Part shown: positions 27,775 through 60,254 of the stretch, in pieces
Numbering within the stretch: position 1 is the stretch's first letter
How the letters are laid out: each line of letters opens with the position of its first letter
Notes under the pieces: generated by a model
What the model saw: only the letters and a program-made list of their open reading frames with translations
The model's database searches: none
Told to the model about the DNA's origin: nothing
Position numbers and translations under genes: made by a program
NCBI GenBank assembly: GCA_945947575.1
Contig: CAMEYM010000012.1
Span: 1 to 64,000 of the forward strand
Reading direction: 5' to 3'
DNA: 64,000 nucleotides
Source: Rhizobium sp. Q54
GTDB lineage: Bacteria > Pseudomonadota > Alphaproteobacteria > UBA2966 > CAIVPW01

Positions 27775-28719
27775 CTAGCTCAGCTTGACGCCCAGCCGCC
27801 CGGCCAGGTCCTGAATGAACTGCCAGGCGACGCGTCCTGAGCGCGCGCCGCGGAGTTGCGACCACTCGATGGCCTGGGCGTGCAAGTCGTCCGCGCGCAG
27901 GGCGTAGCGCTGGGCGTAGCCGTCCACCATGGCGAGGAAATCGTCCTGGCTGGCGGGATGGAAGCCGAGCCACAGGCCGAAGCGATCGGACAGCGACACC
28001 TTCTCGTCCACGGCCTCGCCGGGGCGGATGGCGCCAAGGGATTTGTCGCGCGCCTCCGGCGCGACCGCCTCGTTCTCGATCATCTGGCGGGGGATCATGT
28101 GGCGGCGGTTCGACGTCGCGTAGAACAGCACGTTGTCCGGCCGCCCCTCGATGCCGCCTTCCAGGATCGCCTTGAGCGAGCGATAGCTTTCGCCGCCGTC
28201 GCGCGAAGAGCGCGCATCATCAACTCCTCCGAACGACAGGTCATCGCAGAACACCAACCACCGCCGCGCGCCGCTCGCCAGCGCTGCCAGCAGGGCGGGC
28301 AGGGTGCCGATGTCGTCGCGATGCAGCTCCACGAGCGCGAGTGCGCCGGCCCGGTCGACGTTCACCGCCGCATGCACCGCCTTTACCAACGAACTCTTGC
28401 CCATGCCCTTGGCGCCCCACAGCAGGGCGTTGTTCGCCGGCAGGCCGCCCGCGAAACGCTGGGTATTGGCGAGCAGGGTGTCGCGTTGATTGTCGATGCC
28501 CTTGAGCAACGCGAGCTCCGTGCGCGACATCCGCGTCGCCGCGCGCAGGTGCGTGCTTTCCCACACGAACGCATCGGCCGCGCTCAAGTCAGGCGCGGCG
28601 GGGGCAGGGGGCGCCAGGCGCTCCAGCGCCGCGGCGATGCGCCGCAGCGCGTCCGCCTGGTTCGCCTCGGCGGTGTCCACAGCCGCAGCCTGGGGCTTGA
28701 ATTCGGATGGGCGCGCCAT
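27775..28719 (-). CDS. DUF815 AAA+ ATPase with a VAPEAR insertion
   Basis: This 314-residue ATPase has Walker A GAKGMGKSSLVKAVH near residue 109 and Walker B RWLVFCDDLSF, followed by the family-typical SLKAILEGGIEGRPDNVLFYATSNRRH and DRFGLWLGFHP segments. DUF815 proteins are conserved AAA ATPases of unknown role. Between MIENE and the usual IxPGEAVxEK stretch it carries AVAPEARDKSLG (VAPEAR at residues 219–224), encoded by a copy of the GC-rich palindromic repeat (28045–28065). It is convergent with the LysM gene, with adjacent stops. Confidence 0.82.
   Translation of the reverse strand: MARPSEFKPQAAAVDTAEANQADALRRIAAALERLAPPAPAAPDLSAADAFVWESTHLRAATRMSRTELALLKGIDNQRDTLLANTQRFAGGLPANNALLWGAKGMGKSSLVKAVHAAVNVDRAGALALVELHRDDIGTLPALLAALASGARRWLVFCDDLSFGGVDDARSSRDGGESYRSLKAILEGGIEGRPDNVLFYATSNRRHMIPRQMIENEAVAPEARDKSLGAIRPGEAVDEKVSLSDRFGLWLGFHPASQDDFLAMVDGYAQRYALRADDLHAQAIEWSQLRGARSGRVAWQFIQDLAGRLGVKLS
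28045..28065. repeat. GC palindrome copy inside the DUF815 gene
   Basis: A 21-base near-palindrome with 7-base arms GTCGCGC (28045–28051) and GCGCGAC (28059–28065) around CGCCTCC-type core. Read on the minus strand it gives V-A-P-E-A-R. Family members recur at 32520, 35021, 48184, 50511, 56474, 57739, 59349 and 60200. Its position is in frame. Confidence 0.7.
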
Positions 28720-28848
28720 ACGTGGGGAACTACCTCCGACTGGCTGAATCACCCGGATTTCCGGCGCGAACGGCCTGGGTCGCCGTAGGCAAAGCAGGTG
28801 CCGGGGGTTATAGTCCCCCCCTCGTTTCCGTTCCATCCAGAGCACCGC

Positions 28849-29256
28849 ATGTTCGTCACACCCGCCTATGCCCAGGCACAAGGCGCGACCGGCATTGAGA
28901 CCCTGTGGTCCTTTCTGCCGATCATCCTGATCTTCTTCGTTCTCTACTTCCTGCTGTTCCGGCCCCAGCAGAAGAAGCAGCGCGAACATCAGGCCATGGT
29001 CGATGCCGTCAAGCGCGGCGACCAGGTCGTCACCGCTGGTGGCATCGTCGGCAAGGTCGTCAAAGTCGGCGAGGAGGGCCGCATCTCCGTCGAGATTGCC
29101 CCCAACGTGAAGGTCGAGGTGCTCAAGTCGACCCTCGCCGACGTGCTGTCCAAGCCGATTCCGGCCGACGCCGGTAAGGGTAAAGGCAAGGACAAGGCGC
29201 CGCCCAAAGCAGAGCCCGAGGCTGCGGCGGACGACACCCAGAAGGCGAACCCCTAG
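28849..29256 (+). CDS. yajC: Preprotein translocase subunit YajC
   Basis: The 135-residue protein has one membrane helix (LIIPIILIFFVLYFLLFRPQ type, here SFLPIILIFFVLYFLLFRPQ) and the conserved FRPQQKKQREHQ, then VVTAGGIVGKVVKV. It belongs to the accessory SecDF-YajC complex. The ATG at 28849 is used because it gives the standard short N-terminus MFVTPAYAQ. A lysine/alanine-rich tail (KGKGKDKAPPK) is typical in alphaproteobacteria. secD starts 11 bases downstream. Confidence 0.9.
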   Translation: MFVTPAYAQAQGATGIETLWSFLPIILIFFVLYFLLFRPQQKKQREHQAMVDAVKRGDQVVTAGGIVGKVVKVGEEGRISVEIAPNVKVEVLKSTLADVLSKPIPADAGKGKGKDKAPPKAEPEAAADDTQKANP

Positions 29257-29267
29257 GCCGCACGCTC

Positions 29268-30890: not shown

Positions 30891-30893
30891 GCC

Positions 30894-31853: not shown

Positions 31854-31854
31854 G

Positions 31855-32456: not shown

Positions 32457-32540
32457 GCGCCTCCGGCGCGCTGGGAGACCTGGGTCGAGCGGCGCGCTCG
32501 CAAGGCGCGCGCAGGGAGTGTCGCGCCGCAAGGCGCGCGC
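32457..32540. repeat. Cluster of GC-palindrome pieces in the leader of the PQQ gene
   Basis: Three pieces resemble the dispersed GC repeat: GCGCCTCCGGCGCGCTGGG (32457–32475), a piece with GCGCGCTCGCAAGGCGCGCG (32492–32511) and GTCGCGCCGCAAGGCGCGCG (32520–32539). The last differs by a few bases from the QueA/PutA copy. They separate the promoter-like box from the ATG. Confidence 0.5.
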
Positions 32541-32551
32541 AGGAATTGGGT

Positions 32552-34357
32552 ATGAACAGCCGCGGCAGGACGTGGCGGCGCGGATTCGTCTGCGCGGCGG
32601 TGATGGCCGCCTGTGCCGTCCCACATTCCGCGTCTGCCCGGGACATCACCGACACGCGCCTCGTCAACGCCGATGCCGAGCCCGACAACTGGCTGCATCA
32701 TCACCAGAACTACGCCGGCCATCGCTTCGGCAACCTCACCCAGATCAACGCCGGCAACGTCCGCGGCCTCAAGCTCGCGGCGATGGTCCTGCTGGGCGGC
32801 CAGACGCGCGCTGAGGGTGGCCGCCAAGGCATGACGCGCTTGGAAGGCACGCCGCTCGCCGAAGACGGGTACGTCTACGTCACCGACGGCTGGGGCTCGC
32901 TCTACAAGCTCGACTTGCGCAGCGGCAACCGCGCCGACTTCGTCTGGAAGATGGACCCGCGCATCGACAAGGTCTGGGCGGGCGACGTCGCCTGCTGCGG
33001 CGTCAACAACCGCGGCGCCGCGCTGTGGAAGGACCAGGTCATCTCCATCGCCCTGGATGGCCGCCTGTTCGCCGTCCACAAGGAGTCCGGCCAGATCACT
33101 TGGGAGCGCAAGGTCGCCGATCCCGGCGTCGCCGAGACGCTGACCACCGCGCCGCTCGTCATCCGCGACATGGCGATCGTCGGCCCCGCCGGCGCCGAGT
33201 ACGGCATCCGCGGCTGGCTCGAGGCGACGGACCTCGTCAACGGCACCGCGCTGTGGCGCACCTACACGGTCCCGGCCAAGGGCGAGAAGTTCAACGACAC
33301 CTGGGCGGACAACTACAACGCCTGGGAAACCGGCGGCGGCTCGATCTGGGTGACCGGCACCTACGACCCGCAGCTCAATCTGATGTACTGGGGCACCGGC
33401 AATCCGGCGCCGCAGATCGACGCCGAGTACCGGCCGGGCGACAACCTCTACACCGACAGCCTGCTGGCGATGGATCCCAACACCGGCTCTATTAAGTGGT
33501 TCTTCCAGTACACGCCCAACGACCCGTTCGATTACGACGAGGTCGCCGAGCATCCGCTCATCGACCTCGAGATCGGCGGCGCCACGCGCCGGCTGGTGAC
33601 CCACGCGGGGCGCAACGGCTTCTTCTACGGCTTCGATCGCGTCTCCGGCGAGTTCCTCTACGGCCGCCAGTACCCAAACCTGGTGACGTGGACCAACGGC
33701 CTCGATCCCAAGACGGGGCGCCCGCTCGCCTACAATCCCAACACGGCCGTGCAGCAGTACAACCTCGGCACGGTGCCGCGCCGTGGCGTCGTCGGCGTGT
33801 TCTGCCCGGCGCTCGCCGGTGGCAAGAACTGGGAGCCGTCATCGTATAGCCGTACCCTGCGCATGGTGTTTACGCCCAGCACCGAGGGCTGCTCGGCCTA
33901 CGTCGCCGAGAACGACGGCCACTTCGAGGGCAAGCTCGGCGGCACCTTCCGCAAGCGCACCATGTGGGACGGCCGCGCCCCGGCGCCGCCCGACACGCCG
34001 CTGCCGCTGGCGCAAACCGCGTTCTCGCTCAACGCCATCGACCCGCGCAGCGGCGAGGTGCGCTTCAAGCTGATGCAGGACGCCAAGACCTGGGGCGTGC
34101 TCGCCACCGCTGGTGGCATCGTGTTCGGCGGCAACCAGCTCGGCGATGTCTTCGCGGTGGATGCGCGTACGCTCAACACTCTCTGGACCTTCAACGTCGG
34201 CACCGCTATCCAGGCGCCACCGATGACGTTCGCGGTCGGCGGCCGCCAGTACGTCGCCATCATGGCCGGCGGTGCCGCGGGTGCCGCCCAGCGTGTGCTG
34301 CGCAACTCCACGGCGCTCTTCACGCCGTCCAACTACGTGTTCTTCTTCGCCCTGTGA
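32552..34357 (+). CDS. Secreted PQQ-dependent alcohol dehydrogenase-like protein (1)
   Basis: The 601-residue protein has a signal peptide and an eight-bladed propeller of the methanol/ethanol dehydrogenase family. The vicinal disulfide C148–C149 (GDVACCGVNNRG) stacks on PQQ. Metal-side residues are in PAGAEYGIRG (Glu) and YWGTGNPAPQ (Asn). The catalytic Asp and a second Asp two residues on (D327, D329 in PNDPFDYDEV) fit the D-x-D pattern linked to lanthanide-dependent enzymes. Tryptophan-docking stretches are irregular. No cytochrome domain is fused. ATG 32552 follows AGGAATTGGG. Confidence 0.82.
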   Translation: MNSRGRTWRRGFVCAAVMAACAVPHSASARDITDTRLVNADAEPDNWLHHHQNYAGHRFGNLTQINAGNVRGLKLAAMVLLGGQTRAEGGRQGMTRLEGTPLAEDGYVYVTDGWGSLYKLDLRSGNRADFVWKMDPRIDKVWAGDVACCGVNNRGAALWKDQVISIALDGRLFAVHKESGQITWERKVADPGVAETLTTAPLVIRDMAIVGPAGAEYGIRGWLEATDLVNGTALWRTYTVPAKGEKFNDTWADNYNAWETGGGSIWVTGTYDPQLNLMYWGTGNPAPQIDAEYRPGDNLYTDSLLAMDPNTGSIKWFFQYTPNDPFDYDEVAEHPLIDLEIGGATRRLVTHAGRNGFFYGFDRVSGEFLYGRQYPNLVTWTNGLDPKTGRPLAYNPNTAVQQYNLGTVPRRGVVGVFCPALAGGKNWEPSSYSRTLRMVFTPSTEGCSAYVAENDGHFEGKLGGTFRKRTMWDGRAPAPPDTPLPLAQTAFSLNAIDPRSGEVRFKLMQDAKTWGVLATAGGIVFGGNQLGDVFAVDARTLNTLWTFNVGTAIQAPPMTFAVGGRQYVAIMAGGAAGAAQRVLRNSTALFTPSNYVFFFAL

Positions 34358-34364: not shown

Positions 34365-35012
34365 ATGAACGTCATTGCGCGCGTCGCGGTCGTGGCCTTG
34401 GCGCTGACCGCTCCCTGGTCCGCTGGCGCCCAGAACCTTGCTCTCGACGACTACGCCGAGCTCGTGCGTCTGTGCGGCACCCAGGCTTACGCGATGGTCG
34501 AGTCGATCATCACCTTTCGCGACGGCATCACCGTCGCGGTCGAGGCCACCGCCGCGCTGCCCGGACCTGCCGACCAGCGCTTGATGGCCACCGTCGCGCA
34601 AGCCACTGGCGCGGGTGCGGGGCGCATGTTCGACACGCTGAGCGACTGCCTGATCGAGTTGCGCGAAGGCCTGGAGCAGTCGGCGCTCGCCTTCCTCTAC
34701 GCGCAGGAGATCGGCCTCGAGGTCGACTTCGCCATCGACGAGGTCAACGGCGCCTTCGCCGTCATCGACGAGGCCGAGGCCGCTTTGCGCGCCAAGTGGG
34801 GTACCGCCGGCACCGCCCAAGCCGCGACCGCCCTGCAGCCGTTCCGCGACTTCGCCTTCGATCTCGAAGGCTACCTGGAGGAAGCCCGCGATTTCGTCGC
34901 CGTCCTCGTGGAGCGCACCGCGCCCGCGACTACGCCCGGCGCCGTTCCCCCCGCGATCACACCACCGGGCGCCGCGCAGCCTCCTGCGGCTCCGCGCCCC
35001 GCGCCGCTGTAG
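34365..35012 (+). CDS. Secreted hypothetical protein between the PQQ genes
   Basis: The 215-residue product has a signal peptide (ARVAVVALALTAPWSAGAQ). The rest is alpha-helical: LDDYAELVRLCGTQAYAMVE, then a cysteine-flanked repeat with C near residues 37 and 91, and a Pro/Ala-rich C-terminus. No family was recognised. It starts seven bases after the PQQ-dehydrogenase stop, so co-expression is likely. It may be an accessory or binding partner, but this is inference only. The C-terminus is rich in PAITPPGAAQPPAAP. Confidence 0.6.
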   Translation: MNVIARVAVVALALTAPWSAGAQNLALDDYAELVRLCGTQAYAMVESIITFRDGITVAVEATAALPGPADQRLMATVAQATGAGAGRMFDTLSDCLIELREGLEQSALAFLYAQEIGLEVDFAIDEVNGAFAVIDEAEAALRAKWGTAGTAQAATALQPFRDFAFDLEGYLEEARDFVAVLVERTAPATTPGAVPPAITPPGAAQPPAAPRPAPL

Positions 35013-35039
35013 CGCGCGACAGCGCGCTTACGGCGCGAC
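35009..35039. repeat. GC-palindrome copy at the end of the pentapeptide gene
   Basis: GCGCGC...TTACGGCGCGAC: on the minus strand GTCGCGCCGTAAGCGCGC, which equals the QueA/PutA copy except GAG is TAA-type at the third codon. The TAA is the stop of the pentapeptide gene, giving V-A-P-stop. Confidence 0.6.
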
Positions 35040-35822
35040 GCGCACCTCGCCATCCGGCATCACCGTATCCACCATCGTCGCGCCGTCGAACACCGTGTCG
35101 ATCGTCGTCGCTCCTTGCAGGCGCGCGTTGGTGAGATTGGTGCGCGCCAGGTTCGCCCCCGTCAGGTCCGCTCCGTAGAGGTCGGCGTCCTTCAGGTTGG
35201 CGCCCTCCAGGTTGGTCCCGCGCATCGTCGCGAACGGCAGGTCGGCGACCTCCAGGTTGGCGCCGCGCATGTCGAGCCTTCCCAGGTTCACCTGATCGAA
35301 CCGCGACCCGCCCAGGTATGCGTTGCGGAACACCGTGCCGCCCACCGACGCGTTGCGGAAGTCGCTGTCGATGAGCTTGGCGTCCTCGAACGTCGCACGC
35401 TGCAGCCGCGCGCGAATCAGAATCGTCTCGACTCCGTACGCCCCGCGGAAGTTCGCGCCGGTGCCGTCGGTGAGATACAGGTTGGCGCGAGTCAGCGTCG
35501 CCTCCGATAGGTCGGTGCCCCGCACATTGGCGCGCGACAGGTTGGCGCCTTCCAGGTCCGCGCCCTTCAGGTTGGCGCCCTCCAGATTGGCGAGATACAG
35601 ATTCGCCGCGCCCAGGATGGCGCGCTCCAGATTGGCGCCCTTCAGTTCGCGCCGCTGCAGGTCGGCGCCTTCCAACATGCAGCCGGCGCAATCGTTGACG
35701 CGCCCTGACAGGAACGCGGTCTCGCGCTCGCCAGGCGCCGGTGGGGCAGGGGTCTGCGCTTGCGCAAAGCCCGCGGCCATCACCGCCGCCAGTATCCCTG
35801 CCGCAATCCGACCCGCCACCAT
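35028..35822 (-). CDS. Secreted pentapeptide-repeat protein
   Basis: The 264-residue protein has a signal peptide (GRIAAGILAAVMAAGFAQAQ) and about 25–30 tandem A(D/N)LXX-type pentapeptides, for example LEGANLKGADLEGANL and ADLYGADLTGANLARTNL, which would fold as a right-handed quadrilateral beta-helix. A CAGC pair (DCAGCMLEG) precedes the repeats. Function is unknown. The protein ends R-V-A-P where the stop is supplied by a repeat copy. It is divergent from the second PQQ gene. Confidence 0.8.
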   Translation of the reverse strand: MVAGRIAAGILAAVMAAGFAQAQTPAPPAPGERETAFLSGRVNDCAGCMLEGADLQRRELKGANLERAILGAANLYLANLEGANLKGADLEGANLSRANVRGTDLSEATLTRANLYLTDGTGANFRGAYGVETILIRARLQRATFEDAKLIDSDFRNASVGGTVFRNAYLGGSRFDQVNLGRLDMRGANLEVADLPFATMRGTNLEGANLKDADLYGADLTGANLARTNLTNARLQGATTIDTVFDGATMVDTVMPDGEVRVAP

Positions 35823-35893: not shown

Positions 35894-37720
35894 ATGAACC
35901 GGGCGACTCTCACCTCCACCGTCGCGGCGCTGGCGCTCGCGGTTGCGTTCCCCGCCGCCGCGCGCGACATGACCCAGGCGCGCCTCGAGAACGCCCACAC
36001 CGAGCCCGACAACTGGCTGGTGGTCAACGGCACCTATGCCGCGCACCGCTACGCCAACCTCGGCCAGATCACCAAGGCCAACATCCAGGACCTCACGCCG
36101 CGCATGATGGTGCTGCTCGGCGGCCAGACGCCAGCGCAGGGTGGCCGCTATGCGGTGACCCGCCTCGAAGGCACGCCGCTCGCCGAAGACGGATTCCTGT
36201 TCGTCTCCGACGGCTGGGGCGCGATCTACAAGATCGACGTGCGTTCCGGCACGCGCGCCGACTTCGTCTGGAAGTACGAACCGCAGGTCGACAAGGTGTG
36301 GGCCGGCGACGTCGCCTGCTGCGGCATCAACAACCGCGGCGTCGGTCTCTGGAAAGACAGCGTCATCTCCGTCTCCCTCGACGGCCGCTTGCATCGCATC
36401 CACAAAGAGTCGGGGCAGGTGCTCTGGGAGCGCAAGATCTACGACCCCAGCATCGCCGAGACGCTCACCGTGGCGCCGCTCGTCATCCGCGATCTCGCCA
36501 TCGTCGGCTCAGCCGGCGGCGAGTACGGCATCCGCGGCTCCCTCGACGCCACCGATCTCAACACCGGCAAGCAGGTGTGGCGCACCCACACCGCCGGCGG
36601 CAACGATCGCGACCCGAATGAGAAGGCCAAGGCCACCTGGCTCGACACCTACAACGCGTGGGAAACCGGCGGCGGCTCGATCTGGCAGACCGGCACATTC
36701 GATCCGAAACTCAACCTCACGTACTGGGGCACCGGCAACGCAGGCCCCGACTACGATCAGGAGTACCGCCCCGGCGACAACCTCTACGTGGCCTCGCTGT
36801 TGGCGCTCAATCCGGACGACGGCTTCATCAAGTGGTTCTTCCAGTACACGCCCGGTGACCCGTTCGACTTCGACGAGATCGCCGAGCATCCCCTCATCGA
36901 CATCGACGGCCGCAGCCTCGTCGTGCACGCGGCGCGCAACGGTCACTTCTACGGCTTCGATCGCGCCACCGGCGCGTTCCAGTACGGCAAGCAGTACCCG
37001 ACCGTGGTGACGTGGTCGGGCGGCATCGATCCCAAGACCGGCCGCCCCATGACCTACGTGCCGGGCGCGCCGCTGCAGAAGTACGCGCCGGGCACGGTCG
37101 CCGACCGGGGCGGCGCCGTCGGCATGTTCTGTCCCGCCATCGCCGGCGGCAAGAACTGGGAGCCGACGTCCTACAACCCGCAGCGCCGCACCATCTTCGT
37201 CACCTCGAACGAGGGCTGCGCCGGCATGCGCACGGTGACGCGCCTCAACCACTTCGAGGGGAAGCTCGACGGCACCACCAAGAAGCGATCGATGTGGACC
37301 GGCGGCGCCACGCTGAACAACCAGCAGATGCTGGCGCGCGGCGTCACCGACACGCGCCCGATCACCATGGCCGGCAACTCGCTCAACGCCATCGACGTCA
37401 CCAACGGCGAGGTGAAGACCAAGATCAGCCTCAAGGCAAAGATATGGGGCACGGTCTCCACCGCCGGCGGCCTGACCTTCGGCTGCGACCAGTTCGGCGA
37501 CCTGTTGGCTTACGACAGCACCAACCTGGCGCCGCTGTGGTCGTTCAACCTGGGCAGTCCGTGCGGCGCGCCGCCCATGTCGTTCGCGTTCGCCGGCAAG
37601 CAGTACGTCGCCGTGCTCGTCGGCTACTCGCCGCCCAACACCCAGACCGCAACCCAAGCCGGCCGCCCCGGCGCCAACCTGATGACTCCATCCAACTTCT
37701 TGGTGGTGTTCGGGCTCTGA
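35894..37720 (+). CDS. Secreted PQQ-dependent alcohol dehydrogenase-like protein (2)
   Basis: The 608-residue paralogue of the gene at 32552 has the same layout: signal peptide (LALAVAFPAAARD), C142–C143 in GDVACCGINNRG, YGIRGSLD with its Glu ligand, YWGTGNAGPDYD, and D325–F–D327 in GDPFDFDEIAEH. It oxidises alcohols or aldehydes in the periplasm using PQQ, passing electrons to a cytochrome c. The D-x-D pattern again suggests lanthanide use. No PQQ synthesis genes or cytochrome partners occur in the window. The start is the ATG next to the -10 box. Confidence 0.82.
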   Translation: MNRATLTSTVAALALAVAFPAAARDMTQARLENAHTEPDNWLVVNGTYAAHRYANLGQITKANIQDLTPRMMVLLGGQTPAQGGRYAVTRLEGTPLAEDGFLFVSDGWGAIYKIDVRSGTRADFVWKYEPQVDKVWAGDVACCGINNRGVGLWKDSVISVSLDGRLHRIHKESGQVLWERKIYDPSIAETLTVAPLVIRDLAIVGSAGGEYGIRGSLDATDLNTGKQVWRTHTAGGNDRDPNEKAKATWLDTYNAWETGGGSIWQTGTFDPKLNLTYWGTGNAGPDYDQEYRPGDNLYVASLLALNPDDGFIKWFFQYTPGDPFDFDEIAEHPLIDIDGRSLVVHAARNGHFYGFDRATGAFQYGKQYPTVVTWSGGIDPKTGRPMTYVPGAPLQKYAPGTVADRGGAVGMFCPAIAGGKNWEPTSYNPQRRTIFVTSNEGCAGMRTVTRLNHFEGKLDGTTKKRSMWTGGATLNNQQMLARGVTDTRPITMAGNSLNAIDVTNGEVKTKISLKAKIWGTVSTAGGLTFGCDQFGDLLAYDSTNLAPLWSFNLGSPCGAPPMSFAFAGKQYVAVLVGYSPPNTQTATQAGRPGANLMTPSNFLVVFGL

Positions 37721-37746: not shown

Positions 37747-37794
37747 GTCGCACGGGACGCGCGCAATGGGCGCGCAGCGCCCCTTCGGGGTGCC
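37747..37794. repeat. 48-base GC-rich repeat copy
   Basis: GTCGCACGGGACGCGCGC at the left end, GGGCGCGCAGCGCCCC inside and TTCGGGGTGCC at the right match the copies at 56474–56521 and 57739–57786. It is followed by AGGGTGAGGGTGC, a tail shared by other repeats. It cuts off the remnant to its right. Confidence 0.6.
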
Positions 37795-47085: not shown

Positions 47086-47168
47086 GCTGCACCCGCCAGC
47101 GCTCGCACGTTTTCTAGGACGTCATGGCCGGGCCTGACCCGGCCATCCAGCTGGCGGCAGCTACGCAA

Positions 47169-48122: not shown

Positions 48123-51100
48123 ATGCTCTTCCCCGTTCTCCCGCCCGACGACGAGGGCCTCGAAGGTGGCGCGATCTCTGCCCGTCACGCCGGAGGCGTG
48201 CTAACCGCACGACGCGCGCTGCGCTCCGCGTACCGCATGGACGAGGCCGCGTGCGTGCGCGATCGCGCCGCACGCGCCGCTCTCACCGCTGCCGAAAAAA
48301 GCGCCACCGCCCACCTGGCGCGCGAGCTCGTCACGGCGGTGCGTTCCCGCCGCACCTTCGGCATCGAGGCGTTCCTGCGCGAGTACGGTCTCGATACGCG
48401 CGAAGGCGTCGTAATGCTGTGCGTCGCCGAAGCGCTGCTGCGCATCCCCGACACTGCCACCGCCGACCGCCTGATCCGCGACAAGATCGGCGGCGCCGAA
48501 TGGGATCGCCACTTCGGCCAATCGCCGTCGCTGTTCGTCAACGCCTCGACCTGGGGCCTGATGCTTACCGGCCGCGTCGTTCGCTTCGAACCCGAGGATG
48601 GCGCCGTGCGCCGCGTCATCGGCCGCGCCGGCGAGCCCGTCGTGCGTGCCGCGCTGCTCCAGGCGATGAAGATTCTCGGCCACCAATTGGTGCTCGGCCG
48701 CACCATCGCCGAGGCGATGTCCCACGCCGCCGCCGACGAGAAGAAGGGCGTCCGCTTCTCCTACGACATGCTCGGCGAAGGCGCGCGCACCGACGACGAC
48801 GCCCGGCGCTATCTGCAGCGCTACGCCGAAGCGATCGCCGCGCTCGGCGCAACCAAACGCGGCACCACCATCGCCGACCGCCCCGGCATCTCCGTCAAAC
48901 TCTCCGCGCTGCACCCGCGCTGCGAGTTCGCCAAGCGCCGCCGTCTGCACAACGAGCTGTTGCCGCGCATCGTCGAACTCGCCGCCCTCGCGCGCACCCA
49001 CAACGTCGGCTTGTGCATCGATGCCGAGGAAGCCGACCGCCTCGAGCCGTCTCTCGACCTCATCGAACGCCTCGCCTGGGACCGGGCGCTCGCCGGTTGG
49101 GACGGCCTCGGCCTCGCCGTGCAGGCCTACCAGAAGCGCGGACTGCCGCTCATCGCCTGGCTCGACGATCTCGCCCGCGCTACCCGCCGCCGCCTCATGG
49201 TGCGCCTGGTGAAGGGCGCCTACTGGGACACCGAGATCAAGCGCGCCCAGGAGTCCGGCGTCGAAGGCTATCCCGTGTTCACTCGCAAGGGGGCGACCGA
49301 CGTTTCCTATCTCGGCTGCGCGCGAGCGTTGTTCGCCGCCGGCGAGCGCCTCTATCCGCAGTTTGCCACGCACAACGCGCACACCGTCGCCGCTGTTCTG
49401 GCAATCGCCGGAACCCGCACCGATTTCGAGTTCCAACGCCTGCACGGCATGGGCGAAGCGCTCTACGAGGAGCTGCGCGGCCGCCGCAACGTCTCTGTGC
49501 GCGTCTACGCGCCGGTGGGCGCCCACGAGGACCTGCTGCCGTACCTCGTGCGCCGCCTGCTGGAGAACGGCGCCAACACTTCGTTCGTGAATCGCATCCA
49601 CGACGAGTCGATCCCGATCGAGAAGCTGATCGCCGATCCCGTCGACCACGTCGCGCAGTTGAGATCGATTCCGCACCCGCGCATTCCGTTGCCGCGCGAC
49701 CTCTACGCCCCCGAGCGCGCCAACGCCCGCGGTCTCGACCTCACCGACCCCGAGCACATCGCCATGCTGCGCAAGCAACTCCCCGCGAAGCATGACTGGC
49801 GCTCTGCTCCCATCGTCGCCGGCAAGCGCGTGGACGGGCAGGGCAGACCGGTCAAGAACCCCGCCACCGGCGAAGCCATTGGCACCGCGGTCCCTGCGAC
49901 CGCCGCAACCGTCGACCGCGCCATCACCGTCGCCCACGGCGCCGCGCACGACTGGGATCGCACGCCCGCGTCCGAGCGCGCCGCCGCCCTGCGCCGCGCC
50001 GCCGACGCGATGGAAACGGCGATGCCGGAGCTGCTGACGCTGTGCGTGCTCGAAGGCGGCCGCATCTTCCCCGACGCCGTCGCCGAGGTACGCGAGGCCG
50101 TGGACTTCCTGCGCTACTACGCCGCGCGCGCCGAGGAGTTGTTTGCGCGCCCTCGATCGCTGCCCGGTCCCACTGGCGAGAAGAACGAACTCTGGCTGCA
50201 CGGCCGCGGCGTCTTCGCCTGCATCAGCCCGTGGAATTTCCCCCTGTCGATCTTCATCGGCCAGGTTGCCGCCGCACTTGCCGCCGGCAACGCCGTGCTC
50301 GCCAAGCCCGCCGAGCAGACGACTCTCGTCGCCTGCCGCGCCGTCGAGTTGCTGCACGCCGCCGGCATTCCGACCGACGTCCTGCACTTCGTCCCCGGCC
50401 CCGGCAGCGAGGTCGGCGCGCGCCTCGTCGCCGACCCGCGCGTCGCCGGCGTCAACCTGACTGGCTCCACCGAAACCGCCGCCAGCATCCACAAGGCGCT
50501 CGCGGCGCGTGTCGCGCCGGAGGCGCGCCCCAACCAAAGCGTCCCGATCGGCGTCCTGCTCGCTGAGACCGGCGGTCTCAACGCCATGATCGCCGACTCG
50601 TCCGCCCTCACCGAGCAGCTGGTGGACGACGCGGTCCTGTCGGCCTTCGACTCCGCCGGCCAGCGCTGCTCCGCGCTGCGGCTCCTGTTCATCCAGGACG
50701 AGGTCGCCGACAAGACCATCACGATGCTCGCTGGCGCCATGGCCGAGCTTGCCGTGGGCGACCCGCGCTGGCTCGCAACCGATGTCGGTCCCGTCATCGA
50801 CGCCCGCGCCCGCGACCAGCTCCTGCGGCACATCGAAGACATGCGCCGCACGCAGCGCGTCGTCTATCAAACACCCGTCGCCACCGAACGCGGCTCGTTC
50901 GTCCCACCGACGCTCGTGGAGCTCGACTCCGCGCGTGCCCTGACGAAAGAAGTCTTCGGCCCCATCCTCCACGTCGTGCGCTTCGCCGCCGGCCGCCTCG
51001 ACGAGGTATGCGCCGCCATCAATGCCAGCGGCTACGGCCTCACCCTCGGCGTCCACAGCCGCATCGACGACGTGGTGAACGAGGTCCGCTCGCGCACGAG

Positions 51101-51311: not shown

Positions 51312-52243
51312 TCGACCCCCGCGACATCTCCCTCATTGGAGTGCCGACCGACGTCGGCGGCGCCCATCCCGGCTGCTCGATGGCGCCCGAAGCCCTGCGC
51401 GTCGCCGGCATCGACGTGGCGCTGCGCCGCCTCGGCCATCGCGTCACCGACATGGGTAACGTCGCCGGACCGCCCAATCCGAAGGCCGCGCCCGTCGACG
51501 GCTACCGCCATCTCGACGAGGTGCGCCAGTGGTGCCGCGCCACGCGCGACCTCGTCTACGAGAGTCTCGCCGCGGGCCGCCTGCCCATCACCATGGGGGG
51601 CGATCATTCCGTCACCATCGGCTCCATCGCCGGCATCGCGCGCTGGTGCGCCAAGCAGCAAAGACCGCTGTCGCTGCTCTGGCTCGACGCCCACGCCGAC
51701 TTCAACACGCCCGACACGAGCCCCAGCGGCAACATCCACGGCATGCCGGTCGCTATTGTAGCGGGGCAGGGGCCGCGCACGCTCGTCAGCCTCGCCGCGG
51801 TCGTGCCGATGGTGCAGCCGTCGCGCATCCTGCAGGTCGGCCTGCGCTCCATCGACCAGAGCGAGAAGCCCCTGGTGCAGGCCAGCGGCGTCCAGATCTT
51901 CGACATGCGCCAAGTCGACGAGAGCGGCATTCGCCACGTCATGGACACCGTGCTCGATCAGCTCTCCGGCCTCGGCGGCCACGTGCACGTCAGCCTCGAC
52001 GCCGACTTCCTCGATCCCGCCGTCGCGCCCGGCGTCGCCGTTGCGGTGCCCGGCGGCCCGACCTACCGCGAAGCGCAGCTGTGCATGGAGATGATCTACG
52101 ACTCCGGCCTGATGGGTTCCCTCGATCTCATGGAGGTGAACCCCGCCTACGACGACCGCAACCGCACCGCCACCGTCATGGTCGAATTGGTGGCGAGCCT
52201 GTTCGGCCAGCAAATCCTGTCGCGCCGCCAAGTCGTCTACTGA
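51308..52243 (+). CDS. rocF: Arginase
   Basis: The 311-residue ureohydrolase converts arginine to ornithine and urea. The manganese motifs are complete: [23 protein letters not shown] and SLDADFLDP. The GNIHGMPVA loop and the [13 protein letters not shown] motif point to arginase rather than agmatinase. The ATG overlaps the putA stop by four bases (ATGA) and the stop overlaps the rocD start, so putA-rocF-rocD are coupled. Confidence 0.92.
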
Positions 52244-53448
52244 TGCGCTCGGCCCAAGACCTGATCGACCTCGAATATCGCCTCGGCGCGCGCAACTACA
52301 AGCCGCTCGACGTGGTGCTGACGCGCGGCGAGGGCGTGTGGGTCTGGGACGTTGACGGCAAGCGCTACCTCGATTGCCTGTCGGCGTACTCCGCCGTCAA
52401 CCAGGGTCACTGCCATCCGAAGATTCGCGCGGCGCTCGTCGAGCAGGCCGGCAAGCTCGCGCTCACCAGCCGCGCCTTCCGCAACGACCAGCTGCCGCTA
52501 TTCTACGAAGAGATCTGCGCGCTCACCAACTCGCACAAAGTCCTGCCGATGAACTCCGGCGCCGAGGCGGTCGAGACCGCCATCAAAGCCGTGCGCAAGT
52601 GGGCCTACGAAGTGAAGGGCGTGCCCGAGGGCAAGGCCGACGTCATCGTCTGCGCCAACGCCTTCCACGGCCGCACCATCACCATCGTCGGCTTCTCCAC
52701 CGACCCGCTGGCGCGCACGTCCTTCGGCCCGTTCACGCCGGGCTTCACCGTCGTGCCATTCGGCGACGCCGCGGCTCTCGAGAAGGCGATCACCCCGCAT
52801 ACCGCCGCCTTCCTGGTCGAGCCCATCCAGGGCGAAGCCGGCGTCATCCTGCCGCCGCCCGGCTACTTCCGGCGCGTGCGCGAGCTGTGCACGCGCCACA
52901 ACGTCGTGCTCGTCCTCGACGAAATCCAAACCGGCTTGGGCCGCACGGGCAAGCTGCTCGCCGAGGAGCACGACGGCATCGAGGCCGACGTGACGCTGAT
53001 CGGCAAGGCCCTCGCCGGCGGCTTCTATCCGATGTCGGCGGTGCTCTCGAACCTCGAAGTCCTCGGCGTGCTCAAACCCGGCGAGCACGGCTCGACCTTC
53101 GGCGGCAACCCGCTCGCCTGCGCCATCGCCCGCACCGCGCTGCGCGTGCTCGTCGAAGAAGGAATGATTGAGAACGCGGCGGAGCAGGGCGCGTACTTCC
53201 TGTCCGAGTTGCGCAAGCTGCGCTCCCCTGTCATCCAGGAAGTGCGCGGCCGCGGCCTGATGATTGCGCTGCAGCTGGTCCCCGACGCCGGCGGCGCCCG
53301 CCGCTTCTCCGAGGCACTGAAAGACGCCGGCGTCCTGTGCAAGGAAACCCACACCGACACCCTGCGCCTCGCCCCGCCGCTGGTGATCCAGCGCGCCGAA
53401 GTCGACTACGCCATGGAGGCCATCTCCAGGGTCCTGAGAGCGGCCTGA
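52243..53448 (+). CDS. rocD: Ornithine aminotransferase
   Basis: This 401-residue PLP enzyme (class III) turns ornithine and 2-oxoglutarate into glutamate semialdehyde (in equilibrium with P5C) and glutamate. The PLP lysine is K255 in [27 protein letters not shown] holds the cofactor Asp. [20 protein letters not shown] is typical of RocD. The start overlaps the arginase stop by one base (TGATG). The product feeds PutA's second domain. Confidence 0.92.
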
Positions 53449-53592
53449 ATCGAGCCGAATCGGCCTTCGATTCCAACGGCTTGGTGGCGCTTGGGTGCTG
53501 GCCCTGAACCCCAAACTCTGGTAGTCTGGCGCCAGCAGATTCCCAACATCTGGCGCGTCCCGCGCGCCGCCTCTTCTTAGGCTCCGAACCGT

Positions 53593-56442
53593 TTGACCGA
53601 CACCCCGCCGCCCCCCGCCGCCCGCGACGTTTTCCCGATCAGCGTCGAGGAGGAGATGCGGCGCTCGTACCTCGATTACGCCATGAGCGTCATCGTGTCG
53701 CGCGCGCTCCCCGACGTCCGCGACGGCCTCAAGCCGGTGCACCGCCGCGTCCTCTACGGCATGCGCGAGGGCGGCTACACCTCGGACAAGCACTACCGCA
53801 AGTGCGCGCGCGTCGTCGGCGACATCATCGGTAAGTACCATCCGCACGGCGAGCAGTCGGTCTACGACGCCCTCGTGCGCATGACCCAGGACTTCTCGAT
53901 GCGCCTGCCGCTGCTCGACGGCCAGGGCAACTTCGGCTCCATGGACGGCGATCCGCCCGCGGCCATGCGCTACACCGAGGTGCGCCTGCACCAGGCCGGC
54001 GAGGCGCTGCTTGCCGACATCGACCTCGACACCGTCGACTTCCAGCCGAACTACGACGAGACCGAGCGCGAGCCGCTCGTGCTGCCGTCGCGCATTCCGA
54101 ATTTGCTCGTCAACGGCGCTGGCGGCATCGCCGTCGGCATGGCGACCAACATCCCAACGCACAACCTCGGCGAGGTGATCGACGCCATCTTCGCCTACAT
54201 GGAGAAGCCCGAGATCACCATCGAAGAATTGATGGTGCACATCCCGGGTCCGGACTTTCCGACCGGCGGCGTCATCCTCGGCAACGCCGGCGCGCGCAAC
54301 GCCTACCACACCGGACGCGGCTCCATCACCATCCGTGGCCGCGTCCACATGGAGGAGCTCGCCAAGGAACGCACTGCCATCGTCATCGATGACATTCCGT
54401 TCCAGGTGAACAAGGCCAAGATGATCGAGGCGATCGCGCTCGCCTCGCGCGAGAAGCGCATCGAGGGAATCTCCGAGATCCGCGACGAGTCCTCGCGCGA
54501 AGGCGTCCGCGTCGTCATCGAGGTGCGCAAGGATTCGACGCCCGAGATCGTGCTGAATCAGGTCTACCGCCTGTCCGATCTGCAGACGAACTTCAGCTTC
54601 AACATGGTGGCCCTCACCGAAGGCCGCCCGTCGATCCTCGACCTCAAGGCGTTCATCTCCGCCTTCGTCGCGTTCCGCGAAGTCGTCATCACGCGGCGCA
54701 CGCGGCATTTGCTCGACAAGGCGCGCGAACGCGCCCAGATCCTGGTCGGCCTCGCCATCGCCGTCGCCAACATCGACGAGGTCGTCAAGCTCATCCGCAA
54801 GTCGCCCGACCCGGCGGAAGCGCGCAAGCTGCTCATGGAGCGCGACTGGCCGGCCGCCGACGTCACCGGGCTGCTGGAGCTCATCGACGACCCGACCCAG
54901 CGCGTCAGTCCCAAGGGCACCTATCGACTGAACGACGGCCAGGCGCGCGCCATCCTCGATCTGCGCCTGCAGCGCCTTACCGGGCTCGAGCGCACCAAGA
55001 TCGACGAAGAGCTGAAAGAGCTCGCCGACAAGATCCGCGGCTACCTCGACATCCTCGCCAGCCGCGCGCGCCTGCGCACGGTGATGCGCGAGGAGCTGAT
55101 CGAGGTGAAGAAGAAGTTCGCGACCCCGCGCCGCACCGAGATCGGCCAGGCGGTCGGCGAGACGGTGGACGAAGACCTCATCGAGCGCGAGGACATGGTC
55201 ATCACGGTGACCCAGTCCGGTTACATCAAGCGCACGCCGCTCTCGGTCTACCGCGCCCAGCGCCGTGGCGGCAAAGGCCGCACCGGCATGGCGACGCGCG
55301 AGGAAGACGTCGTCACCGAGGTGTTCGTCGCCAACACCCACACCGAGGTGCTGTTCTTCTCGACCATCGGCAAGGTCTACAAGACCAAGGTCTACAAGCT
55401 GCCGCTCGCCAGCCCGCAGGCCAAGGGCAAGGCGATGATCAACCTGCTGCCGCTCACCGAGGGCGAGATGATCGCCGCGGTCATGCCGTGGCCGGGTGGC
55501 GCTGTCGCCGGCGGCGAAACCATCGCCGACCGCGTCGGCGGCATGGGCCTGTTCTTCGCCACCGCCAAGGGCAACGTGCGCCGCAACGCGCTCGCCGACT
55601 TCGCCAACATCCGCCCCTCGGGCGTCATCGCCATCGACACGCGCGAAGGCGACCGCCTCATCGGCGTGCGCCCGTGCAACTCGGACCAGGACATCCTGTT
55701 GGCGGCGCGCAACGGCAAGTGCGTGCGCTTCCCCGTGGCGAGCATGCGCGTCGCGCGCCGCGGCCGCTCGTTCGGCGTGCGCGGCATGCGCCTCGCCGAG
55801 GGCGACGAGGTCATCTCCGTGTCCGTGCTCAGCCACGTCAAGGCCGAGACCGAGCAGCGCGACGAGTACCTGAAGGCCGTCAGCGCGCGCCGCCGCCTCG
55901 CCGGCGGCGACTACACCGGCCGCGAGGACGACCGCGCCCGCGACCAGGAAGCCGCGGCCAAGCTCGACTCCCCCGAGATGCAGGCGATGGGCGAGAAGGA
56001 AGAGTTCGTCCTCTCCGTCACCCAGAACGGATTCGGCAAGCGCACGTCCGCCTACGAGTACCGCATCACCAGCCGCGGCGGCTCCGGCATCACCAACATC
56101 GACACCAGCGCGCGCAACGGCAAGGTCGCCGCGTCGTTCCCGGTGGAAGACGGCGACCACGTCGTCATGATGTCCGACGGCGGCCGCATCATCCGCATGT
56201 CGGTGGACGACATCCGCGTCGCCGGCCGCAACACCCAGGGCGTCACGTTGTTCACGACGGCCGAGGGCGAAAAGGTCGTCTCCGTCGCCCACCTGTCGCG
56301 CCCGGGCGAGGACGAAGCCGCCGCCACCGAGAAGCCGCCCGAGAGCGCCGCGCCCGAAGAAGGAGCGGTGGAAGAAGAGATCGTCGAAGAGGAGATCGAG
56401 GAAGACGTCCCCGACTCCGAGGTCGAGGAGGAAGACACGTAG
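53593..56442 (+). CDS. gyrA: DNA gyrase subunit A
   Basis: The 949-residue topoisomerase subunit has the catalytic Tyr in [10 protein letters not shown], the GyrA box QRRGGKGR and six C-terminal blades, with an alphaproteobacterial insertion before the last blades ([20 protein letters not shown]). The tail is highly acidic. The quinolone region reads [13 protein letters not shown]87 and Q88 sit where E. coli has D82 and S83. The start is TTG at 53593. coaD begins at the stop codon. Confidence 0.95.
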
Positions 56443-57068
56443 TGGCTGGCCCGAAGGTCGTCCGCGCCGAAACGTCGCGCGGAACGCGCGCTGGGCGCGC
56501 GGAGCGCGCCTTCGGTGCGACTCGCGCCGCCGGCTCCCGGCGCGGCAAGCGCGTCGCCGTCTATCCCGGCACCTTCGACCCGATCACCAACGGCCACATG
56601 GATATCATCAGCCGCGCCACCAAGGTCGCGGACCACCTGATCATCGGCCTCAGCGAACACTCGTCCAAGACGCCGCTGTTCAGCCGCGATGAACGCCTGG
56701 AGATGATCGCCGCCGAGATCGAGCCGTTGAACGGCCTCAACGGCACCACCATCGAAGTCCGCATCCTCGATCGTCTGTTGATGACGTTCGTACAGGACGT
56801 CGGCGCCAGCTTCGTCATTCGCGGCCTGCGCGCCGTCTCCGACTTCGACTACGAGCTGCAGATGGCCGGCATCAACGCCCGCCTCAACCCCGAAGCCGAA
56901 ACCATCTTCCTGATGGCGTCCGAACATAATCTGTTCATCGCCTCCAGCCTGGTGCGCGAGATCGCCGCCCTCGGCGGCGACGTCTCCAGCTTCGTCTCGC
57001 CGCGCGTCGCCAAGCGCCTGATCGCCCGCTTCACCGAGAACCGGAATCGCGCGCTGACGGCGCGATAG
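56442..57068 (+). CDS. coaD: Phosphopantetheine adenylyltransferase with an N-terminal extension from a repeat
   Basis: The core (from RVAVYPGTFDPITNGHMDII) is a normal nucleotidyltransferase of CoA synthesis; it has the T-x-G-H motif and the late LFIASSLVREIAALGGDVSSFV segment. It is 208 residues because about 35 extra residues precede the core (AETSRGTRAGRAERAFGATR). No in-frame ATG, GTG or TTG exists between the GTG at 56442 and the core, so the extension must be translated unless an unusual start is used. Bases 56474–56521 of it are a copy of the 48-base GC repeat. The start overlaps the gyrA stop (TAGTG). Confidence 0.9.
   Translation: MAGPKVVRAETSRGTRAGRAERAFGATRAAGSRRGKRVAVYPGTFDPITNGHMDIISRATKVADHLIIGLSEHSSKTPLFSRDERLEMIAAEIEPLNGLNGTTIEVRILDRLLMTFVQDVGASFVIRGLRAVSDFDYELQMAGINARLNPEAETIFLMASEHNLFIASSLVREIAALGGDVSSFVSPRVAKRLIARFTENRNRALTAR
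56474..56521. repeat. 48-base GC repeat in the coaD 5' end
   Basis: GTCGCGCGGAACGCGCGC at the left and GCGCGCCTTCGGTGCGAC at the right; it is about 80% identical by eye to 57739–57786 and related to 37747–37794 and 60200–60236. Here it encodes the N-terminal extension of CoaD. Confidence 0.75.
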
Positions 57069-57081: not shown

Positions 57082-57110
57082 GTCATTGCGAGCGCAGCGA
57101 AGCAATCCAT
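57082..57110. repeat. GTCATTGCGAGCGCAGCGAA-type dispersed repeat
   Basis: This is the well-known repeat with GTCATTGCGAG and GAAGCAATCC; ATTGC (57085–57089) and GCAAT (57102–57106) are inverted. It follows coaD by 13 bases. The remainder of the 315-base gap to 57383 has no gene that I can see. Confidence 0.6.
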
Positions 57111-57635: not shown

Positions 57636-57651
57636 CGGCGTCGTTGACCCC

Positions 57652-57681: not shown

Positions 57682-57738
57682 GTCGATGCGCCCACGGAGC
57701 TCTCAGAGAAATCCCGGCCCTGCCTAGATTTTCGATCC

Positions 57739-57786
57739 CTCGCCCGGAACGGGCGCTAGGCGCGCCCGGCGCGCCTCCGGCACGAC
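57739..57786. repeat. 48-base GC repeat, intergenic copy
   Basis: It carries GCCCGGAACGGGCGC, GGCGCGCCCGG and GCGCGCCTCCGGCACGAC. It is followed by GGCTGGGTGAGGGTGC, as in other copies. It is one of the longest intergenic copies. Confidence 0.6.
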
Positions 57787-57857
57787 GCTTGGCGCCTGAG
57801 CGCCTGGCGCAGGCTGGGTGAGGGTGCTGTTGTCTTGTTGTCTGGTCGGACCGCTGT

Positions 57858-58088
57858 CTAAGAGTCCGCTGCTCCCGCCCCCAGAGCACCCCGCACCTTC
57901 GCCGCGTTGACGACGCAATCCCCCAGCGCCCTCGCGCCCGCCGCCATCCCGGCCTCCGCGCACGCCGCCCGATCCGCCACGAATCTCTCCATGGCCACAG
58001 CATCCCGTGCGCCGAGGACGTTCGACCACGCGAATCCGATCACCGTTCCAACGAGCGACGTGACGAGCAGCAGGCGGGGTGGGGTCAT
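57858..58088 (-). CDS. Small SOS-regulated candidate membrane protein
   Basis: The 76-residue protein has one N-terminal helix (RLLLVTSLVGTVIGFAWSNV) and a periplasmic or cytoplasmic domain of about 50 residues with two cysteines (ACAEAG and GDCVVN). No family is recognised. It lies behind a promoter with a LexA-type SOS box (58118–58132), so damage-induced expression is predicted. ATG at 58088 has GGAG upstream. A longer start at 58115 would lie inside the promoter. The SOS-induced SidA of Caulobacter is a smaller inner-membrane division inhibitor; no sequence similarity is claimed. Confidence 0.55.
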   Translation of the reverse strand: MTPPRLLLVTSLVGTVIGFAWSNVLGARDAVAMERFVADRAACAEAGMAAGARALGDCVVNAAKVRGALGAGAADS

Positions 58089-58113
58089 GGGAGGCTCCGG
58101 CAAAGACACCGGC

Positions 58114-58142
58114 ATATGTTCACTATATGTTCACTCTGTCAA
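58114..58142 (-). promoter_or_regulatory. Sigma-70 promoter with LexA SOS box GTTCN7GTTC
   Basis: On the minus strand TTGACA (58142–58137) is followed after 17 bases by ACATAT (58119–58114). The plus-strand sequence GTTCACTATATGTTC (58118–58132), that is GTTC-N7-GTTC, lies in the spacer next to the -10. It is the alphaproteobacterial LexA operator, and it is also an 11-base tandem repeat. The plus gene on the right has its own candidate TTGACG at 58160–58165. Confidence 0.7.
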
Positions 58143-58222
58143 ATCCATCGCATAACGTATTGACGTAGATACGTGTCGTACCACATGCAGGCGTGAAACC
58201 AGCGCCTACGGAGCCAATCGCC

Positions 58223-59086: not shown

Positions 59087-59126
59087 TCGCCGCCCGCTGC
59101 CGCCTGTGTGCTAGAAGCGCCCGCCC

Positions 59127-60254
59127 ATGGACGTTTCGCAGTTCGACTTCGATCTGCCGCGCGAGCGCATCGCCCAGCGCCCGGCGCGGCCGCGTGATTC
59201 CGCGCGCCTGCTCGAAGTACGTGCCGACTCGCTCGCCGACCGCCGCATCCCCGACCTCGCGTCCTGCCTGCGCCCTGGCGACCTGCTCGTCTTTAACGAC
59301 ACCCGCGTCCTGCCCGCGCGCCTCACCGGCACCCGGACGTCGCCCAGCGTCGCGCCGGAGGCGCGCAACCAACGCACGACCGCCACCATCGAAGTGACCT
59401 TGAACCGCGCGCTGGGAGGAGGGCAGTGGAGCGTCCTCGCCCGCCCCGCCAAACGCCTGCGCCCGGGCGACACCATTCAATTTGAAGACCTTCGCGCCGA
59501 AGTCATCGATCGCCACGAAGGCGAAGTCATCCTCGCCTTCGCGGGCGGGGATACCGCCCTGTTCGCCGCCGTCGAGCGCATCGGCACCATGCCGCTGCCG
59601 CCCTACATGGGCCGCGACGCCGACGCCGCCGACCGCGACGACTACCAGACTATGTTCGCGCACGTGCGCGGGGCCGTCGCCGCGCCCACTGCCGCGCTGC
59701 ACTTCACGCCGCGCGTCATCGCGGCGCTGGACTCCGCCGGCATCGCTCGCACCTTCGTGACGCTCCACATCGGCGCCGGTACATTCCTGCCGGTGACCGC
59801 CCCCGACACCGACCAGCACCGCATGCACCCCGAGTGGGGTGAGGTGCCCGTCGCCTGCGTCGACGCCGTGCGCGCCACCCGCCAGCGCGGCGGCCGCGTC
59901 GTCGCCGTCGGCACAACTGCGTTGCGCCTCCTCGAAACCGCGGCCTTGGACGACCGCACCGTGCGCCCCTTCCAGGGCGACACCTCGATCTTCATCACGC
60001 CCGGCTACCGGTTCCGCGCCGTGGACTTGCTCCTGACGAACTTCCACCTGCCGCGCTCGACCCTGTTCATGCTGGTCTGCGCCTTCGCCGGCACCGCCCG
60101 CATGCAGTCCGCCTACGCCCACGCGATGAACAGTGACTACCGCTTCTACTCCTACGGCGACGCCACTCTGCTTCACCCGGCTCCGTCCCCTCCCCCTGCG
60201 TCGCGCGGGGCGCGCGGAGCGCACCTCCGGCACGACGGGGGAGGGCTAGGGTGA
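59127..60254 (+). CDS. queA: S-adenosylmethionine:tRNA ribosyltransferase-isomerase with repeat-derived insertion and tail
   Basis: QueA forms epoxyqueuosine in the queuosine pathway. Core motifs: FDLPRERIAQRPARPRDSAR, GDLLVFNDTRVLPARL, LHIGAGTFLPV and NFHLPRSTLFMLVCAF. It is 375 residues with an insertion about residues 71–86 between TGTR and ATIEVTL: it contains VAPEAR (75–80), from a GC repeat. The C-terminus after YGDATLL is a 26-residue tail (HPAPSPPPASRGARGAHLRH) encoded by another copy (60188–60245). The stop is in GGGTGAGGG. Confidence 0.92.
   Translation: MDVSQFDFDLPRERIAQRPARPRDSARLLEVRADSLADRRIPDLASCLRPGDLLVFNDTRVLPARLTGTRTSPSVAPEARNQRTTATIEVTLNRALGGGQWSVLARPAKRLRPGDTIQFEDLRAEVIDRHEGEVILAFAGGDTALFAAVERIGTMPLPPYMGRDADAADRDDYQTMFAHVRGAVAAPTAALHFTPRVIAALDSAGIARTFVTLHIGAGTFLPVTAPDTDQHRMHPEWGEVPVACVDAVRATRQRGGRVVAVGTTALRLLETAALDDRTVRPFQGDTSIFITPGYRFRAVDLLLTNFHLPRSTLFMLVCAFAGTARMQSAYAHAMNSDYRFYSYGDATLLHPAPSPPPASRGARGAHLRHDGGGLG
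59349..59366. repeat. GC-palindrome copy inside queA
   Basis: GTCGCGCCGGAGGCGCGC, in frame as V-A-P-E-A-R, then CAACCAACGC. Identical core to the putA copy. Confidence 0.75.
60188..60245. repeat. CCCTCCCCC hairpin with a GC palindrome nested in its loop
   Basis: CCCTCCCCC (60188–60196) and GGGGGAGGG (60237–60245) flank a 37-base GC repeat (60200–60236; GTCGCGCGGGGCGCGCGG ... CTCCGGCACGAC). The GC unit sits in the loop of the other repeat, as expected if it inserted there. It also encodes the QueA tail. Confidence 0.7.

Follow-up and report, generated by a model that had tools for sequence, protein, structure and literature searches.

Can a short, GC-rich palindromic repeat multiply in a bacterial genome and be tolerated inside protein-coding genes? 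The question is raised by a 64,000-nt stretch of Rhizobium sp. Q54 (assembly GCA_945947575.1, contig CAMEYM010000012.1, positions 1 to 64,000; below, the window), in which an earlier note had described a dispersed palindrome that enters several proteins in frame and is tolerated there, as are the Rickettsia palindromic elements (RPEs). Our comparison with related genomes supports that description. The family is very probably a non-autonomous mobile repeat of the kind that includes RPEs and repetitive extragenic palindromes (REPs), and it has multiplied within one genus, partly after the split of the closest species.

We refer to the genome under study as G000 (2.49 Mb in 40 contigs, 68% GC) and to its same-genus relatives as G001 to G004, G002 being the sister; all five assemblies are 91-96% complete. 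Labels such as C6:82383 give contig and position, in G000 unless another genome is named, and L labels denote aligned stretches of relatives. The family is carried by two related 18-mers, A (GTCGCGCCGGAGGCGCGC) and B (GTCGCGCGGGACGCGCGC), which are distinguished by a compensatory exchange of C:G for G:C at the stem top and have the same fold, a 6-bp GC stem with a 3-nt loop. When up to two mismatches are allowed, A has 8 matches in the window against a mean of 0.18 in shuffled sequences (none of 100 shuffles reached 8) and 73 matches in the G000 genome against 6 for the reversed pattern, while B has 54 genomic matches against 14 in the control; the A and B genome counts overlap, as some copies match both. 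The family is thus in clear excess over random palindromes, a point on which the earlier note had made its own reading depend. Nine of the ten places listed in that note hold A or B within two mismatches, and the tenth (32457-32540) has degenerate pieces only. The copies in the window are as follows.

28048..28065, minus strand: A hairpin with exact core inside the DUF815 ATPase gene (27775-28719, minus); reads VAPEAR; a 27-nt insertion, absent in G001-G004
32457..32543, no strand assigned: weak, degenerate members of the family, upstream of the gene at 32603; best match with 3 mismatches; parts missing in G002
35009..35039, minus strand: A copy (core 35022-35039, 2 mismatches) at the 3' end of a pentapeptide-repeat gene (35028-35678, minus; PF00805); orthologous stretches too diverged to read
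37747..37794, plus strand: B copy with 1 mismatch and a degenerate partner, intergenic, 27 nt past a gene end; orthologous stretches too diverged to read
48184..48213, plus strand: 30-nt head-to-head form, from GTC to GAC, near the N-terminus of PutA (gene 48123-51311, plus)
50511..50537, plus strand: A copy within PutA's aldehyde dehydrogenase half, where it encodes VAPEARPNQ
56474..56521, plus strand: 48-nt dimer (B at 56474, spacer, inverted A at 56504 on the minus strand) in the N-terminal extension of CoaD (gene 56442-57068, plus)
57739..57786, minus strand: 48-nt dimer with one end degenerate (A core at 57769, minus), intergenic; no equivalent in G002
59349..59380, plus strand: copy with VAPEAR in QueA (59127-60254, plus); present in G000 and G002; G001, G003 and G004 are 27 nt shorter
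60200..60236, plus strand: shortened dimer (B at 60200, A at 60219 on the minus strand) in QueA's C-terminal tail, lying within a CCCTCCCCC..GGGGGAGGG palindrome; 48-nt form in G002

The residues VAPEAR are present in QueA, PutA and the DUF815 protein as had been claimed, the copy at 35022 does end the pentapeptide protein by supplying its stop codon, and the CoaD copy lies in an N-terminal extension of that protein. At the CoaD site, G002 has a 30-nt form and G003 two copies 27 nt apart, and there is none in G001 or G004.

The consensus unit is a hairpin with a GTC end, found singly or in pairs. Two hairpins (up to two mismatches) were recognized at 13 of 74 sites, 11 of them head to head with the tags outward, one overlapping and one head to tail; full pairs mostly measure 48 nt (B, spacer, inverted A) or 30 nt (hairpins overlapping). 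The far GTC/GAC end was unrecognized in 35 of 47 copies under a strict rule, which gives a lower bound on pairing, as degenerate partners occur. The nucleotide before GTC is C in 32 of 47 copies (up to one mismatch), a modest excess over 47-48% in the same DNA, and the tails are variable, with no CCA consensus apparent by eye. The commonest same-strand spacing in the 666 kb examined is 27 nt, which accounts for 11 of 50 successive pairs within 80 nt; these 11 pairs are not independent, as they represent six loci, of which two are orthologous and two entered the count from both strands. Spacings of 9, 11 and 18 mostly result from shifts of register inside pairs. Three-copy tandem arrays with a 27-nt period are seen in G002 (L130, about 581-640; L282, about 749-820). 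None of five canonical forms tested has a stop codon in any frame.

To establish which copies are insertions, we aligned them with orthologous stretches of the four relatives and counted as internal insertions those with at least one empty orthologue. Sixteen such insertions in coding sequence were identified, 13 from G000 and 3 from G002; the CoaD copy (56474) and the QueA tail copy (60200) were left out of this set. At 9 of the 16 sites the net gain against at least one relative is 27 nt: in DUF815 (against all four relatives), in QueA at 59349 (against G001, G003 and G004, G002 sharing it), twice in PutA (at 48184 against G002 and G003 with both flanks conserved, and at 50511 against G002, the sole relative with that stretch), in an IalB-like protein (2/2 relatives), in HtpG (against G002, G003 and G004, G001 sharing it), in a ChaN-like protein (2/2 relatives measured, G001 being aligned but outside the measured set), in HflX (against G001, G003 and G004, G002 sharing it), and in a PAS histidine kinase (27 nt against G001, 36 against G004). 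The remaining sites comprise a Cys/Met PLP enzyme (45 nt against 4/4 relatives), a RecF-like protein (33-45 nt; G001 shares the insertion, with a difference of 3), a creatininase (21-24 nt; G003 carries its own insert), a cytochrome c-like protein (33 nt, one relative measured), and, from G002, a MarR regulator (30 nt against 3/3 relatives), an alanine racemase (24 nt against 1/1) and a DinG-like helicase (90 nt against two relatives; G003 carries its own array). Protein names are from Pfam, with RecF-like and DinG-like inferred from SMC_N and Helicase_C_2. Every one of the 16 net lengths is divisible by three, which is to be expected when functional genes are compared; what needs explaining is the recurrence of 27 nt. 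Ten of the 12 comparable G000 insertions are empty in G002, which indicates that much of the spread is younger than the split of these two genomes, whose DNA identity is 88-94% at eight loci.

The G000 orthologue test covered 27 of 36 sites inside genes, 13 of which are the internal insertions above. Two more (46869 and C18:32300), like G002:C1:145563, align without an inserted element and are chance coding matches. Eleven are terminal or unreadable (C1:100402, C1:140155, C1:173394, C2:7229, C5:68712, C22:28276, C24:4752, C24:20684, C40:4349, 56474 and 60200), and for C33:6343 no orthologue was found. The nine sites left out, several of them probably chance matches, are C2:108304, C3:65425, C3:114915, C4:21804, C5:5732, C8:75345, C9:75257, C17:48775 and C37:5286. 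A second round, in which 12 of 20 stretches were used, yielded the internal insertions L272, L284 and L287 and one chance match (L276), the rest being intergenic, terminal or ambiguous.

Among the 61 genomes searched, the family is abundant in this genus alone. With up to one mismatch, A has 33, 7, 26 and 17 matches in G000, G001, G002 and G003, and 1 in G004 (control 1); in the 56 genomes outside the genus there are 0 to 2 per genome, and only six genomes have any match. B, with up to two mismatches, has 54, 24, 47 and 24 matches in G000 to G003 against controls of 14, 6, 16 and 11, and 5, 1 and 1 in three other genera of the same family against controls of 1, 0 and 2.

In 400 kb of G000 we recorded 74 sites, 36 inside called genes, 34 intergenic and 4 across a gene end, although 88.3% of that DNA is called coding (binomial P about 1e-16). 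This DNA was chosen around A matches, so that B-only sites elsewhere are missing, some of the inside-gene matches are chance, and a simple gene caller was used. The concentration of 34/74 sites in the 11.7% of DNA that is non-coding could mean that we are dealing with ordinary REPs acting between genes at the DNA or RNA level, as terminators or in mRNA stability, with the copies in genes as accidental by-products; the few dimers inside other palindromes also agree with this. It is a possible explanation, if a somewhat improbable one. The genes flanking the 34 intergenic sites run in the same direction in 22 cases, converge in 5 and diverge in 7 (hand count), similar to the 166, 21 and 55 of all gaps of at least 30 nt, and so give no clear terminator bias, and internal insertions are frequent.

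The mobile-repeat reading can be put as follows. The elements are the A and B hairpins, alone or paired head to head so that the GTC ends point outward (48 nt, or 30 nt when overlapping), and an enzyme acting in trans would move them. A new copy in a gene would most often add 27 nt, sometimes 45 or another length. Landing in a tolerant loop, it would add a hydrophilic peptide such as VAPEAR, presumably neutral to the host protein, and be kept; harmful copies would be lost, so that survivors would lie between genes or in variable loops. Tolerance inside genes would follow from the lengths 27 and 45 being divisible by three and from the lack of stops in every frame of the canonical forms. Frame neutrality may be partly built in, 27 nt also being the commonest tandem spacing.

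Several observations weigh against this proposal. No Y1 transposase (PF01797) was found in any of the five genus genomes, other transposase families being outside the search, and this leaves a Y1 enzyme of the REP-associated (RAYT) type rejected as the mover. No target-site duplication was seen by eye, though the relatives are too diverged to exclude short ones. The 27-nt gain is not universal, since 7/16 internal sites have other multiples of three and the intergenic insertion C6:82383 adds 43, 46 and 47 nt against three relatives. Stop codons occur in some copies, such as 35022 or dimers with CTAGGC. B is only about twofold over its control in G003 (24 versus 11) and not above it in G004 (5 versus 7). 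Finally, 4 of the 16 internal sites are filled in non-sister species, which is unexpected under random insertion. A tree from 9,542 aligned bases has the topology ((G000,G002),G003,(G001,G004)) with full support; the sites concerned are those in HtpG and the RecF-like protein (G000 and G001), the DinG-like helicase (G002 and G003) and the creatininase (G000 and G003). The inserts in the latter two differ in sequence between the species, while in HtpG the same codon is occupied in G000 and G001. The htpG gene of G000 is 90.7% identical to that of G002 and 77.0% to that of G001, which speaks against local gene transfer. Such shared sites reflect either a preference of insertion, or a small number of tolerant sites, or precise loss.

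Some copies lie in the loops of other palindromes, where the gain can be measured between the arms: 67 nt versus 22 in empty copies for the G002 orthologue of 60200, 77 versus 32 for a G003 copy (L155, about 1223, minus strand), and 48 versus 21-22 for C26:8439, with C5:75044 (55 versus 26) as an exception to the gain of 27 or 45. As the empty copies compared are members of the same repeat from other loci, the net lengths are approximate. The net gain of 27 or 45 nt falls about three short of the palindrome's 30 or 48 nt, which suggests, from few and diverged sites, that roughly three nucleotides of the target are replaced. The idea of a GTC/GAC target triplet, modelled on IS200/IS605, is unsupported, as the triplets at empty sites vary. 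Neither is palindromy of the flanks a general rule: arms of at least 6 bp were found at only 3 of 11 full elements, so that nesting concerns a subset.

A transposase-free route, in which template switching or hairpin-primed repair copies a repeat into stalled sites such as hairpin loops, would fit these nested copies, the apparent replacement of about three nucleotides, the failure to find a Y1 transposase and the lack of visible target duplication. We nevertheless consider it unlikely, because the two hairpin types are constant, share an end and, when paired, mostly stand head to head, an arrangement that looks like a recognized substrate. It is equally doubtful, though conceivable, that the family has an intrinsic 27-nt unit of nine stop-free codons, with site-preferring insertion or precise loss by a single-strand hairpin-loop mechanism not yet described; the same loops would then be repeatedly lengthened and shortened across lineages by a frame-neutral loop mutator.

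Other repeats accompany the GC-rich family. In C5:75044 and L155 the loop of a TCATTGCGAG..GAAGCAATCC repeat is occupied by the GC-rich element, a REP within a REP. Two classical-looking CGTC-type REPs (GTCATGGCCGGG..CCCGGCCATCCA and TCATTGCGAG..GAAGCAATCC) lie in the window at 47120-47150 and 57082-57109; they are found alongside the GC-rich family and again in the related genomes. The CCCTCTCCCC/GGGGAGAGGG palindromes at 60612-60690 form a further dispersed repeat, and the loops of its relatives hold some GC-rich elements.

Returning to the GC-rich repeat and its host proteins, the coding copies do prefer one frame, but they do not all share it as had been proposed. The VAPEAR phase is used by 16 of 23 same-strand A copies (chance matches included; P 0.0004) and by 9 of 13 verified insertions (hand tally; P 0.009), and the Arg-rich phase by none of the 23; at 48184 in PutA the reading is RHAGGVL, and the CoaD and C-terminal QueA copies are in another phase. 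The VAPEAR residues of QueA occur in 1 of 80 other orthologues, that of the sister G002, so that they are restricted to G000 and G002 among 81 sequences; distant orthologues with the same residues and no repeat, which would have spoken against insertion, did not appear. Several other orthologues have unrelated extra residues at this position. In the predicted QueA structure (mean predicted local distance difference test score, pLDDT, 76), for which Foldseek returned QueA crystal structures as top matches, the insert belongs to an unstructured segment that joins strands 65-70 and 87-97 (pLDDT about 58 over residues 71-80), and the C-terminal copy to a tail of pLDDT below 50. Alignments to solved structures of PutA (3haz), HtpG (2iop), O-succinylhomoserine sulfhydrylase (3ndn) and QueA (1yy3) have gaps at or beside the inserts (nine residues beside the 50511 insert in 3haz), indicating that few or none of the insert residues exist in the solved proteins.

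The favoured phase, together with the HtpG codon filled in the non-sister genomes G000 and G001, might suggest that coding copies are selected peptide modules, with VAPEAR-like loops useful to proteins. We regard this as very unlikely: the host proteins are unrelated, close relatives manage without the insert, and avoidance of the Arg-rich phase could suffice for the preference. That the palindromes arose by chance from base composition, with orthologues having similar residues anyway, holds for a few matches (the three chance coding matches above) and is next to impossible for the family as a whole, given its excess in window and genome, its background level in the other genera searched and the exact gaps in orthologues.

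According to Di Nocera et al. 2013 (PMC3733652), GTAG and CGTC REPs are present inside genes of several free-living species, the RPE-4 and RPE-6 elements of R. conorii are CGTC REPs with intragenic copies, and CGTC-tagged REPs (CGTC-1 to -4) form head-to-head dimers and have no dedicated transposase. A free-living analogue of RPEs is therefore not new, contrary to the earlier supposition; the family is a GC-rich form of the REP/RPE kind, and its novelty is that of a variant. Like CGTC REPs, it consists of short hairpins with a GTC end, preceded by C in a modest excess of copies; where paired, these mostly form head-to-head homo- or heterodimers with tags outside, and the family occurs in alphaproteobacteria, with some intragenic copies. 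The lack of an associated transposase may be a further common trait, no Y1 enzyme having been found in a search limited to that family of enzymes. Unlike them, it has a 6-bp GC stem (8-9 bp in CGTC REPs, with A/T pairs at the first two positions), a 3-nt loop (4-5 nt) and no CCA tail (a 3-nt tail, mostly CCA); in addition, it is GC-rich, often yields a net gain of 27 nt and is abundant in one genus among those searched, and pairs make up a minority of its sites, so that the mostly dimeric organization of CGTC REPs is not observed, although 13/74 is a lower bound, as degenerate partners exist. Since stem, loop, tail and dimer predominance all depart, we do not class the family as a CGTC REP. 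With GTAG REPs and their RAYT it shares a hairpin with a short end tag, paired units and a mostly intergenic location (PMC3733652), whereas its end is GTC rather than GTAG and no PF01797 match was found in the five genus genomes.

The family works like an RPE: it is palindromic, lies in frame in unrelated proteins, is tolerated, and is absent from relatives, here at 16 internal sites. The hosts of RPEs are AT-rich intracellular bacteria, whereas the present host has 68% GC and is presumably free-living. The elements also differ in size, 27-48 nt here versus about 150 bp for RPEs as first reported (PMC10969869), a paper that treats RPEs as the case of unusually high frequency and holds a similar mechanism conceivable elsewhere. 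Small non-autonomous repeats such as miniature inverted-repeat transposable elements (MITEs) and intragenic units can likewise add in-frame residues to proteins (PMC10969869; PMC2759123); the GC-rich family is much shorter than MITEs and, as noted, without target-site duplications visible by eye among relatives too diverged for short ones. The terms in-frame and intragenic do not occur in the available part of PMC12306157, and our literature search, with most subscription papers beyond its reach, found no published account of this family. The best-known examples of palindromes inserted in frame come from intracellular Rickettsia, and there reductive evolution could be held responsible. With a GC-rich family in a different alphaproteobacterial lineage, its presence and absence measured in five related genomes, nine codons often gained and the same loops filled repeatedly, it becomes possible to test how CGTC-type repeats move when no transposase is known for them, and whether they are a source of loop variation for conserved proteins.

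Two further observations concern the surroundings of the copies. The part of the window from 49704 to 53474, which takes in the latter half of putA and the genes as far as 53474, has no match at the syntenic position G003:C35:13831-13962. The pentapeptide-repeat gene is flanked by two paralogous genes (32603-34357 and 35894-37720; pieces with 71-82% DNA identity, about 3.3 kb apart), and this pair has partial matches elsewhere in the genus.

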